Shown: piece after piece, positions 26,746-33,414 of the stretch | Numbering within the stretch: the stretch's first letter is position 1 | How the letters are laid out: each line of letters starts with the position of its first letter | Source of the DNA: Pseudomonadota bacterium | GTDB lineage: Bacteria; Desulfobacterota; Binatia; Binatales; Binataceae | DNA length: 64,000 nucleotides | Assembly: GCA_021325355.1 (NCBI GenBank) | Contig: JAJPHI010000018.1 | Span: 265,200-329,199 of the forward strand | Direction: 5' to 3' | Notes under the pieces: model-generated | Databases searched by the model: none | What the model was told of the DNA's origin: nothing | Seen by the model: only the letters and a program-made list of their open reading frames with translations | Made by a program: the position numbers and the translations under genes

Positions 26746-26799
26746 CACGATCGCGATCGTGTAAAGAATTATCAAGGACTGGAGCGGTCTCCAGCCCTT
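26746..26799 (+). terminator. two small hairpins after etfA
   Basis: CACGATCGCGATCGTG (26746-26761) is a perfect 16-bp palindrome followed by TAAAGAATT. A second hairpin AAGGACTGGAG-CGGT-CTCCAGCCCTT follows at 26774-26799 with one mismatch. Neither has a clean T-tract. They may attenuate transcription between etfA and the next unit. Confidence 0.35.
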
Positions 26800-26933
26800 G
26801 GCGCGATCGCCACCCCTGTATTCAGAAGGGGTAAGATGATTCTCAGTGTGGTATGCTGCCCGCTGACGGCCGGCACATGGATTGCTGTGGATGCCGATCC
26901 TGGCAAGTACGCCAGATCTTCTGGAGGTCAACC

Positions 26934-27314
26934 ATGGCGGGCGCAAACGAGATCAAAGAAAAGATTAAACAAGGCGCGGAAGAGGCTTCGGACCGCGCGA
27001 AGGAAGCTAACGACGAAATTCGGCGGACCGCGCGCAAAGTGGCCGATCGCTCGCCCATCAAACTCGATGTCGGCGAGCTCGAGCGCTTTGCCGATGAACG
27101 CCCGCTAACCCTCATGGCCGTAGCCGGGGTGGCGGGCTTTGTGATGGGTGGCGGACTGCGAACCAAGCTCGGCTTAACCCTGCTCGCAATCTTTGGCCGA
27201 CGCGCGGCACGCCAATCCGCGGCCAATCTCGCCTCTGACTGGTGGCGGCGGACGCCGCGACCCCGGATGATGCAGAGCGGTCAGCGCTTCGGCTTTGCCG
27301 CGCGCGCTCGATGA
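26934..27314 (+). CDS. small DUF883-like helical membrane-anchored protein
   Basis: About 126 residues from the ATG at 26934, which has GGAGGT 5 bases upstream; the ORF track start is too early. The first ~55 residues form a charged amphipathic helix (NEIKEKIKQGAEEASDRAKEANDEIRRTARK). Then RPLTLMAVAGVAGFVMGGGL gives a single membrane segment with Gly repeats, similar to the ElaB/YqjD (DUF883) membrane anchors. A basic tail follows. Its TGA overlaps the ATG of the next gene (ATGA), so the two are translationally coupled and likely act together. Confidence 0.65.
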   Translation: MAGANEIKEKIKQGAEEASDRAKEANDEIRRTARKVADRSPIKLDVGELERFADERPLTLMAVAGVAGFVMGGGLRTKLGLTLLAIFGRRAARQSAANLASDWWRRTPRPRMMQSGQRFGFAARAR

Positions 27315-29428
27315 GCGAACGGGCGCACAGTGTCATTGATTCCGACAACCTCGTGGCGGCCGCCGAACTGGCCGGCGCCGTCGTGCTGGCGCGCCTGGCG
27401 CTCCCGGTGCTGCTCACATGGGTAGCTAACCGATTCGGCAAACGTTTGTCCGGGCTTCAGGCGCGGGTCGAACGGGTGGATATCGACCTGACGCGACCCG
27501 GATTGACGGTCGAGGGTCTGCAGGTTGACCAGCAGACCGACGGCGCATTTTATCCACTCGCGCGCATCGAGACCGTTCGCGTAGGCAGCGATTGGTCAAC
27601 GCTCCTTAACGGCTGTCTGCAGGCACACGTCGAAATTGATCGGCCGCGGGTTGAGGTCGACCTGAAGAGACTATCGACGATGCATACGGTGCCGGCACCG
27701 TCGACGCAACCGCAGCCCGCCGGCGCGCTTCACGCCAATGGTACGGTGATCGATCCGATGGGCAGCCCCGACCCGACGATCGCTGAGCGGCTCGTCGCGC
27801 TACAGGACCGTCTCAGACGGCTCCCGCCGTTCAACTGCACGCGCGTCGAGTTGCATGAAGGCAGCTTCAGCGTCCGCGGTATCCCGGCCCTGGATCATGG
27901 AGATCTAAGGGTCACGACGGTCAACGCCGTGCTGGAAAATCTGAGCAATGATCCGGGCGCGGCGGCGACCATGCCGACCGTCCTCGCCTGCTCGGCCGAG
28001 CTCATGAAATCGGGCAGGCTCACGATCGACGCCGAAGCTTTTCCCCTGATTTTCCCGCCGCAGTTCGATCTTGACTGCCGTGTCGAACAGCTTGAGCTGA
28101 CCGACTTCCGAGCCCTCATGGCGCAGTTGATGGCGGTCGATATTGAAGGCGGTACCGCGTATCTGCTGGCCGAGGCCGCAGCCGCCGACGGCGAGCTTCG
28201 CGGCTATGCCAAGCCGATCGTCGATGGGCTACGGGTCAAAGCGCTCAAAGGTCGCGGGCTGAAGATCCGGCTGAAGGGATGGACGGTAAAGCTCGCCGCG
28301 CGGCTGCTGCGCAACCGCGCCACCGATCGCCTTGGAACCCGTGTCGATTTCAGCGGCCCCTTGGACCATCCGCGGGTCCGGATGGCGGCGGCGGTCAGGC
28401 GACTGCTGCGTAACACTTTCCGTCCCGAGAACGTCGCGATCGAGGATCGAATCGAGCTCGCGCGGAACGGCGTCCGCCGCGACCTCGGCCCGGCCGAGAC
28501 CGCCGCAGATCCGCCGTCGCCCTCGACGACAACCGCGCGGCTTCAACGGCGGGGCGGGCTGGGCAATTTCGCGGCGCTGAGCAAGGCTGCTGCGGTGCGC
28601 TGGCTCGAGGACAATGCGATGCAGCATGCGGCGGCGTTGGCCTACTGTACGGCTTTTTCGATCGCGCCGCTCCTGCTGCTCGCGACCGGTGTCGCCGGCA
28701 TGATGCTCGGCAGCAGTCCCGCGATTCAGGCGCGGATCATCCGACAGATTGCGGCCTCCGTGGGGCCGCAGAGCGCTCACCTGTTGCAGAGCATGATCGC
28801 CGGTGTGTCCCATCCGGGCCGCGGCGCCATGGCGGCGATTATCAGCGTCGTCTCGATCCTGATCGGCGCGACCGGGGTGCTCAGCTCGATGAAGACCGCG
28901 CTGAATCAGATTTGGCGCACGCACGAGGCCGGCAATCTGAAGGAAGTGGTCAAGCGCAACGCTGTGTTCCTCGGCATGATCCTTGGCATTGGCTTTCTTC
29001 TGGCGGTCTCGTTGATCATCTCGACCGCGATCGCGGCGCTCGGCGCTTACCTCGGGTCGATTACCCCCGCGCTCGAATTCGTCATGCAGACCGCGTCATT
29101 CTTCGTCACGCTCGCGATCGAGGTCGTGCTCTTCGCCGCAATCTTCAAATTCCTGCCGAACGTGGAAGTTCGCTGGCATGACGTCTGGATCGGCGCGGTC
29201 GTCACCGCGCTACTGTTTTCGCTGGGCAAGATCACACTTGGCTACTACCTCGGCCGCAGTGCGATTTCATCGTATTATGGTGCGGCCAGTTCGCTCATGA
29301 TCCTGCTCCTGTGGATCTATTACTCTGGTCTGATCCTGTATTTCGGGGCGGAAATCACTGCGGTTGCCGCGGCCCTGAGGGTCGGGCCCGAGGAACCCGT
29401 GCGCAAGTTCGCACGTCAGTCAGGATAG
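27311..29428 (+). CDS. fusion of an AsmA/DUF748-like domain with a YihY/BrkB-family membrane domain
   Basis: 705 residues from the ATG that overlaps the previous stop; the ORF track begins too early. After a possible membrane segment near residues 15-40 comes an AsmA/DUF748-like part: SGLQARVERVDIDLTRPGLTVEGLQV is the typical opening of such beta-rich periplasmic proteins, with repeats of similar character up to about residue 400. From about residue 416 the sequence is a complete YihY/BrkB domain (ALSKAAAVRWLEDNAMQHAAALAYCTAFSIAPLLLL to SLMILLLWIYYSGLILYFGAEI) with about six membrane helices. AsmA-like proteins carry phospholipid between membranes. YihY function is unsettled. The fusion suggests one lipid-handling device. 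Confidence 0.75.
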   Translation: MSERAHSVIDSDNLVAAAELAGAVVLARLALPVLLTWVANRFGKRLSGLQARVERVDIDLTRPGLTVEGLQVDQQTDGAFYPLARIETVRVGSDWSTLLNGCLQAHVEIDRPRVEVDLKRLSTMHTVPAPSTQPQPAGALHANGTVIDPMGSPDPTIAERLVALQDRLRRLPPFNCTRVELHEGSFSVRGIPALDHGDLRVTTVNAVLENLSNDPGAAATMPTVLACSAELMKSGRLTIDAEAFPLIFPPQFDLDCRVEQLELTDFRALMAQLMAVDIEGGTAYLLAEAAAADGELRGYAKPIVDGLRVKALKGRGLKIRLKGWTVKLAARLLRNRATDRLGTRVDFSGPLDHPRVRMAAAVRRLLRNTFRPENVAIEDRIELARNGVRRDLGPAETAADPPSPSTTTARLQRRGGLGNFAALSKAAAVRWLEDNAMQHAAALAYCTAFSIAPLLLLATGVAGMMLGSSPAIQARIIRQIAASVGPQSAHLLQSMIAGVSHPGRGAMAAIISVVSILIGATGVLSSMKTALNQIWRTHEAGNLKEVVKRNAVFLGMILGIGFLLAVSLIISTAIAALGAYLGSITPALEFVMQTASFFVTLAIEVVLFAAIFKFLPNVEVRWHDVWIGAVVTALLFSLGKITLGYYLGRSAISSYYGAASSLMILLLWIYYSGLILYFGAEITAVAAALRVGPEEPVRKFARQSG

Positions 29429-31819: not shown

Positions 31820-32542
31820 TCAGGTGGGCGGATGGGAACGGTCAAGCTCGACCTGCGCTCGGGCCGGATCGTCGACGGTATCGCCGTCGGGCTGTGCGCG
31901 CCAGCGGCGGAGCAGGGGCGGCAGCACGGCCAATGCACCGATAAGCCCGAAACCGATTATCCCGTAACGGATCGCGTCGAGATTGCCGCTGGCCGCCGCC
32001 CGTCCCGCATAGCCAAGGTAGCTGTACGCGATCGACCCCGGCAGCATGCACACCGCCGAAGTCAGCGCATAGGTGGCGAAGCGAATACGCGTCAAACCGA
32101 GCGCGTAGTTCAGGGGATTGAAGGGAAAAATCGGCACCAGACGCGTGAAGGCGACGAAACGCCAGCCCTCCGCTTCCGCCCCTTCAATGATCCGACTAAG
32201 GCGCGGGCCGGCCCGCGCGCGCACCCATTCCGCAGCGATATAGCGCGAGATGAGGAAGGCGACACTCGCGCTCATGGTCGCGGCAACCAGATTCCAGACC
32301 GTGCCCCACAGCGGCCCGAAGATCCCTCCGCCGGTCAGCGTGAGAATCGCGCCTGGTACCAGCAGGACCGTGGCGACCACGTACAAAGCCACAAACGCCG
32401 CCGGGGCCCATAAGCCGAAGCGCTGGACGTCGGCGGCGATCCGTCCTTCGTTCCATTGCTGATGATGCATCAGAACCCAGCCGACCGCTGCGGCCAGGAT
32501 CACCAACGCGATCATCCTGAGGCGATTTGCCGGCAGCTTCAC
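31820..32542 (-). CDS. TVP38/TMEM64-family (DedA-like) membrane protein
   Basis: About 240 residues. The GTG at 32542 is chosen over the ORF-track start at 32590 because it overlaps the previous stop as GTGA, a normal coupling. Six or so membrane segments are seen. The VTT-type core contains LLVPGAILTLTGGGIFGPLWGTVWN and RLVPIFPFNPLNYALGLTRIRFATYA, which are hallmark re-entrant-loop motifs of this family. Relatives (DedA, TMEM41B) move lipids between membrane leaflets. Coupling with a fatty-acid-hydroxylase-type enzyme suggests a role in lipid modification or transport. Confidence 0.85.
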   Translation of the reverse strand: MKLPANRLRMIALVILAAAVGWVLMHHQQWNEGRIAADVQRFGLWAPAAFVALYVVATVLLVPGAILTLTGGGIFGPLWGTVWNLVAATMSASVAFLISRYIAAEWVRARAGPRLSRIIEGAEAEGWRFVAFTRLVPIFPFNPLNYALGLTRIRFATYALTSAVCMLPGSIAYSYLGYAGRAAASGNLDAIRYGIIGFGLIGALAVLPPLLRRWRAQPDGDTVDDPARAQVELDRSHPPT

Positions 32543-33414
32543 CGGGCGTTTTCGCGCAGTATCGGATAAGCGCCCGTGCCGCCGCGCCACGGCTGCAGCA
32601 GCATCCGGTCAAGACGCTCATCGGCAGGGTCGCGGAACTGCTCGAGACCGATCGTCATCCCGCGATGGCCGGCGCTGGGCTGCGCGCAGTAGGTGCCGAA
32701 GAGACGGTCCCACAGGGAAAGATTGAAGCCGAAATTGCTGTTGGTCTCGCGCACCAGAATCGAGTGATGCACGCGATGCATGTCGGGGGTCACGGTGACC
32801 CATCGTAACATCCGGTCCGTGCCCGAGGACAACGCGAGATTTGCGTGGTTGAACATCGAGGTCGCGTTCAACAAAACCTCGAAGCTGAGGACAGCGACCG
32901 CAGGCGCGCCCAGGATGGCGACCGCGACACTCTTGATGACGGCCGAGATGCAGATTTCGATCGGATGAAAACGCACGCCCGTCGTGACGTCGAAGTCGAG
33001 GTCCGCGTGATGCATCCGGTGCACGCGCCATAAAACGGGCACCGCATGAAACAGCACATGCTGTCCGTAGATGACGCCGTCGAGGACCACCAGCGTGATC
33101 ACGAATTCAACCCATCGCGCCGGATTAATTGCGGCGAACAGGCCCCAGTGTCGCGCCTCGACCAGCATCGCCACGGCAGTCGCCGACCCCGGCGGGATCG
33201 CCCGAACCGTCAGGGAATTGAGCGCTGCGATACCCAGATTGTTCGGCCATCGCCGGCCACGCGAACAACTGCGTTCCCGTCGCGGCCATTGCGCCTCCGC
33301 CGCCCCCATCAGGACGAGGAGCGCGACGAAGACGCCGAGTCGGATCGCGATTTCCTGCGGCAAAACTGTACGCCCGTCAGATTGCACAGGCAGGGCGGAG
33401 CCGCGCCGCAGCAT
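32539..33414 (-). CDS. sterol desaturase/fatty acid hydroxylase superfamily membrane enzyme
   Basis: 291 residues with about four membrane helices. The eight-histidine di-iron motif is present in three parts: HVLFH, HRMHH (in VHRMHHADLDF) and MHRVHHS, plus HAN between them. These enzymes add hydroxyls or double bonds to sterol, hopanoid, carotenoid or fatty-acid substrates with oxygen. It is downstream of the serine hydrolase gene on the minus strand and overlaps the TVP38-like gene by 4 bases. The substrate cannot be read from sequence. Confidence 0.85.
   Translation of the reverse strand: MLRRGSALPVQSDGRTVLPQEIAIRLGVFVALLVLMGAAEAQWPRRERSCSRGRRWPNNLGIAALNSLTVRAIPPGSATAVAMLVEARHWGLFAAINPARWVEFVITLVVLDGVIYGQHVLFHAVPVLWRVHRMHHADLDFDVTTGVRFHPIEICISAVIKSVAVAILGAPAVAVLSFEVLLNATSMFNHANLALSSGTDRMLRWVTVTPDMHRVHHSILVRETNSNFGFNLSLWDRLFGTYCAQPSAGHRGMTIGLEQFRDPADERLDRMLLQPWRGGTGAYPILRENAR

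Follow-up and report, generated by a model that had tools for sequence, protein, structure and literature searches.

The window, the whole stretch of 64,000 nucleotides that was analyzed, comes from a 3.36 Mb draft assembly in 35 contigs, taken to represent the soil-dwelling family Binataceae, and carries a unit of two overlapping genes, separated from etfA by a hairpin. The features of this locus are as follows.

26773..26800, no strand assigned: hairpin with a 12-pair stem, located between etfA and the unit of two genes; terminator-like on the minus strand only
26923..26927, plus strand: Shine-Dalgarno sequence GGAGG, 6 nt ahead of the ATG of the small gene
26934..27314, plus strand: small membrane-anchored DUF883-like protein P0001, 126 aa, so described from one hydrophobic helix and the gene clusters of its relatives
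27311..27314, plus strand: ATGA overlap between the stop of the small gene, which ends in CGATGA, and the start of the fusion
27311..29428, plus strand: DUF748-YihY fusion P0002, 705 aa; a single open frame matching both profiles
27353..28420, plus strand: shortened DUF748 (AsmA-clan) half, about residues 15-370, with four cysteines, from profile matches and alignment
27368..27427, plus strand: N-terminal hydrophobic helix, residues 20-39, broken by R28, from hydropathy and flanking charge
28421..28600, plus strand: Arg-rich linker, residues 371-430, ahead of the YihY half, from hydropathy and direct sequence
28607..29368, plus strand: complete YihY/BrkB domain, residues 433-686, with about six membrane helices, from Pfam, NCBIfam and hydropathy

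The hairpin marks the upstream boundary of the unit, as a match to the consensus only; four such hairpins occur in the region against 1.9 expected. The fusion frame contains 705 codons from the ATG at 27311, or 728 from an upstream GTG at 27242, and GC3 is high over its entire length, including the junction of the two halves. Sequence inspection found no Shine-Dalgarno sequence before the ATG at 27311, and this, combined with the ATGA overlap that had been noted in the original prediction and is present, makes translational coupling likely, so that the fusion probably relies on the small gene upstream for its translation.

The small protein has a single hydrophobic helix at residues 57-75 as judged by hydropathy. 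P0001 itself has no Pfam match except a sub-threshold one to YtxH and none to DUF883, while its relatives match DUF883_C at E-values of 7e-4 to 4e-5, all below the curated cut-off. DUF883-like, its earlier description, thus remains a fair term without amounting to a formal family assignment.

On the minus strand, about 2.4 kb downstream of the fusion, lies a gene for a VTT-domain (DedA/TVP38-type) membrane protein (31820-32590, E-value 3.5e-23) that adjoins a fatty-acid hydroxylase gene (32539-33414). Scramblase candidates include the DedA-type proteins.

The DUF748 and YihY halves

The N-terminal half, when scanned alone, matches DUF748 (PF05359) over residues 15-292 with an E-value of 9e-13 and 47.6 bits, just below the curated cut-off of 50, and it reaches 9.9e-34 with an HMM made from stand-alone Binatia DUF748 proteins, in agreement with its original assignment as AsmA/DUF748-like. 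Its N-terminal ~130 and C-terminal ~190 residues align with the stand-alone proteins, which end where the fusion linker begins. The half falls short of a full domain, with about 170 alignment columns of the ~540-aa stand-alone proteins missing in this fusion and in a second one described below; the C-terminal core (AEAAAADG.L.GYAKP ... DR..TR.DF.GP) is well conserved between the two. A sequence search found no credible homologue in the PDB, viral contigs provided no homologues to deepen the fusion alignment, and structure prediction from the two fusion sequences resulted in a pLDDT of 33 and a pTM of 0.23.

DUF748 is related to the AsmA, TamB and DUF3971 domains (PMC4494059), and the N-termini of AsmA/TamB-clan proteins share homology with the chorein domain, which transfers lipid (PMC6791001). 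DUF748 members listed for Pseudomonas aeruginosa are PA4735 and PA2708, and the latter, with 361 aa and the same Pfam family as the groove half of the fusion, has been judged too short to span the periplasm (PMC10900882). The groove half is likewise too short, at ~330 aa, for an AsmA-type lipid bridge that spans the periplasm. The fusion resembles the short DUF748 proteins (PA2708 and the ~540-aa Binatia proteins) in profile family, N-terminal helix and conserved C-terminal core. It differs in lacking the ~170 central residues of the ~540-aa proteins, in its reversed helix charge and its cysteines, and in having a YihY domain where the short proteins have a free C-terminus (PMC10900882). With the E. 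coli lipid bridges TamB, YhdP and YdbH it shares the clan, the chorein-type N-terminus and the expected lipid groove, yet these proteins have 879-1266 aa and are periplasmic, whereas the fusion half lacks an outer-membrane end and probably lies in the cytoplasm (PMC8593681, PMC8912898, PMC10900882).

The other half was originally predicted to be a full YihY/BrkB domain, which the profiles confirm: BrkB (PF03631) matches residues 433-686 with an E-value of 3e-47 and 161.9 bits (curated cut-off 33.7), and the NCBIfam model yihY_not_rbn (TIGR00765) scores 91.4 bits (curated cut-off 73.15). Hydropathy gives six or seven hydrophobic stretches, the low-confidence model has six helices, and the charges follow the pattern seen in the relatives. 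The domain is complete and carries the same conserved motifs as the rest of the family, including E. coli YihY and YhjD, but it is preceded by the DUF748 half and has no C-terminal winged-helix-like extension. It belongs to a separate subfamily of ~300 aa with its nearest relatives in other Binatia families or elsewhere in the phylum, not among the native Binataceae copies; the source genome also encodes a second, ordinary YihY as well as several DUF748 proteins that stand alone, among them one with 540 aa. PRK04214 (ribonuclease BN/unknown domain fusion) similarly combines YihY with an additional domain, but that model extends past the C-terminal end of YihY while the extra part of the fusion is an AsmA-clan domain ahead of it. 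We know of no biochemical demonstration that any YihY protein moves lipid. E. coli YhjD, a family member with a reported five to six helices, binds core-lipid A, and LptB co-purifies with it (PMC3219608).

Recurrence and origin of the fusion

A search of 57 relatives revealed a second fusion in Candidatus Binataceae bacterium Bin.006_Pasture (JAMXLL010000222.1), which represents a different genus of the family, with 42% identity over residues 19-677 and 35% in the N-terminal half. The same contig was recovered in a genome-contig scan with the N-terminal half. This genome has 6% contamination, the contig is 17 kb long, and a frameshift within the final ~30 codons of the fusion (L056:3971-4100) cuts the last helix, the YihY match continuing in another frame. 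The draft state of the host genome, in 35 contigs, raises the question of whether the frame is an artefact of assembly or annotation that joins two genes. We regard this as extremely improbable since the frame is continuous with steady coding composition, and both chance and assembly error are excluded by an independent assembly in which the junction and the internal deletion recur.

The fusion is therefore not unique to one contig, yet it is rare: it occurs in two of 41 Binataceae genomes, and no third full-length copy was found in the 41 genomes of the family, 148 of the class and 395 of the phylum that were searched. The genome-contig scan, which used two narrow motifs that distant fusions could escape, returned only the second fusion. 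Among 48 plasmid records with YihY, none covers 80% of the query, and no AsmA-family gene was present near YihY in four annotated plasmid neighbourhoods. In trees of 102 YihY domains and of 18 DUF748 halves, the two fusions group together as sisters, each time with 100% support. Together with the shared deletion of ~170 residues, this placement points to one fusion event, which would explain the presence of the gene in two genera.

In the tree of 18, the DUF748 half of the fusions lies on a long branch and its composition is altered, a pattern that also fits loss of function. The half could thus be a relaxed remnant serving as anchor, tether or regulator, in which case the protein would act in envelope stress as YihY proteins do, and its fused half would no longer handle lipid. 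The deletion, the small number of genomes with the fusion and the late frameshift in the second copy agree with such a decay. We nevertheless consider it unlikely, as two genera retain the two halves as a single frame, with 35% identity between their N-terminal halves, and the C-terminal DUF748 core is well conserved.

Gene clusters of P0001 relatives contain DUF883-like, DUF3618-like (assigned by eye) and YqjE/Phage_holin_3_6 membrane proteins. A compact run in one genome (G024, L116:5300-7880) encodes a DUF883-like protein, a P0001-like protein, a further small membrane protein, YqjE and YihY; another genome (G017) has DUF883-like, P0001-like, YqjE, AI-2E and 542-aa DUF748 genes all within 6 kb, and in a third (G028) YqjE is 280 bp from a DUF748 gene. 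An AI-2E gene is also found 2.4 kb from the second fusion, beside which no P0001-type coupled gene was seen. DUF748 and YihY thus occur in the same type of neighbourhood in Binataceae, in clusters of the DUF883/YqjE type, and the fusion unites two proteins that already share this company. The clusters resemble the stress operons PA3040-3042 of P. aeruginosa and yqjD-yqjE of E. coli in their DUF883-like and YqjE-like proteins, while the window retains only the DUF883-like gene and the fusion (PMC11302039). The P. aeruginosa operon responds to envelope stress (PMC11302039).

Membrane topology and proposed function

One hydrophobic helix precedes the groove, and none is clear between the groove and the YihY domain; hydropathy gives one weak stretch (residues 269-287, mean 1.14). 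In a set of 28 YihY relatives, positive charge is found in loop 2 (mean K+R 3.9, D+E 1.6) and in the C-terminal tail, and several long YihY proteins have a C-terminal winged-helix-like extension (Rrf2/MarR-type, sub-threshold to threshold matches). These features suggest that the YihY C-terminus is inside, the positive-inside rule being statistical, and with an even number of passes (six) the YihY N-terminus, the linker and the groove would be inside as well. Both fusions show a reversed charge around the N-terminal helix (net N minus C of -5 and -2). No such reversal occurs among 18 short DUF748 proteins that stand alone, of which 15 have the opposite sign and three are level. Cysteines make up 5 of 744 residues in the fused DUF748 halves (0.67%; four and one per copy) versus 2 of 7991 in the short stand-alone proteins (0.03%; Fisher p 8e-5), with the topology statistics coming from two related fusion sequences and the cysteine excess mostly from one. 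Other AsmA-clan relatives have 1 of 5231 and 4 of 21621, giving 7 of 34,843 for all AsmA-clan relatives, and the cytoplasmic proteins of the window are similar to the fused halves (15 of 1967). The signals are indirect yet agree with one another: pass parity, an inside YihY N-terminus, the reversed helix charge and the cysteine content most likely place the groove half on the cytoplasmic side, provided that YihY is oriented as usual. This predicted topology also cautions that AsmA-clan homology alone is no proof of a periplasmic bridge.

The original prediction that the chain is a compact lipid exporter is disfavored by these results, as the groove half is short, lacks ~170 residues and is predicted to face the cytoplasm; groove length and topology together argue against an exporter that spans the periplasm. 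Our tentative reading, held with somewhat less than even confidence, is a two-gene stress-type envelope unit in which an inner-membrane YihY works with a shortened DUF748 scoop that handles lipid on the cytoplasmic side, not as a periplasmic bridge. The second gene would provide the YihY domain with an N-terminal lipid-binding scoop of the chorein/AsmA type, anchored by a helix turned round relative to stand-alone DUF748 proteins. The scoop may bind acyl chains and either pass them on to the YihY helices or regulate these helices, which in turn would move lipid within the inner membrane. Both lipid binding and lipid movement are proposed by analogy, and the lipid-handling role in the inner membrane is a best guess based on the binding of core-lipid A by YhjD (PMC3219608) and the homology of the AsmA clan to chorein domains (PMC6791001). 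As we read it, the fusion is a rare joint of two known families, DUF748 and YihY, and what goes beyond this architecture we infer.

AsmA-clan genes beside YihY genes

The original prediction had proposed a survey for further fusions or adjacent AsmA and YihY genes, and besides the second fusion this survey returned linked genes. We scanned 84 Binatia YihY loci with HMMs, covering ~6 kb to either side wherever the contig was long enough. At 13 loci, all in one Binatia family (f2) and representing at least eight genera, an AsmA-family gene (~500-530 aa) is directly beside YihY (L138, L142, L143, L144, L147, L152, L157, L160, L162, L163, L167, L175 and L181). These AsmA proteins match Pfam AsmA at 1e-8 to 1e-21 (eight tested) and have pairwise identities of 39-84%. 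The pairs are usually convergent, and in one genome (G504) both genes are on the same strand with AsmA 42 nt upstream. A DUF748 gene is divergent from YihY at a distance of 68 nt in another genome (G457), and a 1206-aa DUF748 is convergent with YihY in a further one (G467), a case noticed in the match lists before the HMM scan. In E. coli K-12 (3673362-3678350), a single gene, yhjE, lies between yhjD of the YihY family and yhjG of the AsmA family. By comparison, we estimate less than one AsmA-clan neighbour in 85 loci, assuming about ten AsmA-clan genes per ~4,500 genes. The relation of the fusion's N-terminal half to the f2 AsmA proteins is based on the direct Pfam matches; hhalign with the two-row N-half alignment found nothing against an f2 AsmA protein, the rows being too few.

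A search of 395 phylum genomes for the AsmA protein of the f2 pairs, at E-values up to 1e-40, gave a match in a single genome, itself an f2 member; this and the shared ancestry of f2 make the pairing one conserved neighbourhood rather than many independent events, leaving about four independent AsmA-clan/YihY associations, the fusion included. An APC-type permease gene is also retained beside the pair in several f2 loci (seen in L138, L144 and L147), and conservation of the neighbourhood could therefore have other causes. Recurrence of the fusion and gene linkage in Binatia nevertheless lend support to a functional connection between the DUF748/AsmA and YihY families; a limited literature search found no paper that links them.

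This linkage bears on a different arrangement, in line with the original prediction, in which YihY would feed inner-membrane lipid into a periplasmic groove that, being short, passes it to a partner AsmA-clan protein instead of extending to the outer membrane. AsmA-clan proteins are normally periplasmic and anchored N-terminally (PMC10900882, PMC8593681), their genes adjoin YihY in the 13 f2 loci and in G457 and G467, with a similar proximity of yhjD and yhjG in E. coli, and Binataceae keep a full-length DUF748 protein elsewhere that could act as the partner. A periplasmic groove would, however, require an inverted YihY or an odd number of membrane passes, and it is opposed by pass parity, the reversed N-helix charge, the Arg-rich linker and the cysteine content, as well as by a length below that needed to span the periplasm, as judged for PA2708 (PMC10900882). 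We therefore rate it as rather unlikely and retain the cytoplasmic scoop as our preferred reading.

In a bolder form of the cytoplasmic reading, which we consider quite improbable, an AsmA-clan groove turned to the cytoplasmic face has been fused to its natural partner, and YihY, acting together with AsmA-clan grooves, serves as a lipid scramblase or flippase. The pairing of VPS13/ATG2 with scramblases in eukaryotes is the proposed counterpart. If this were true, the fusion and the AsmA-YihY gene pairs would reveal the bacterial version of that system. How phospholipid enters AsmA-clan bridges from the inner membrane and what YihY does are two questions for which fusion and pairing offer one testable proposal.

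Another gene found next to YihY is MscL-like, located 6 nt away in one genome (G471, L064:7700-9007) and ~0.9 kb away in another (G508, L182).
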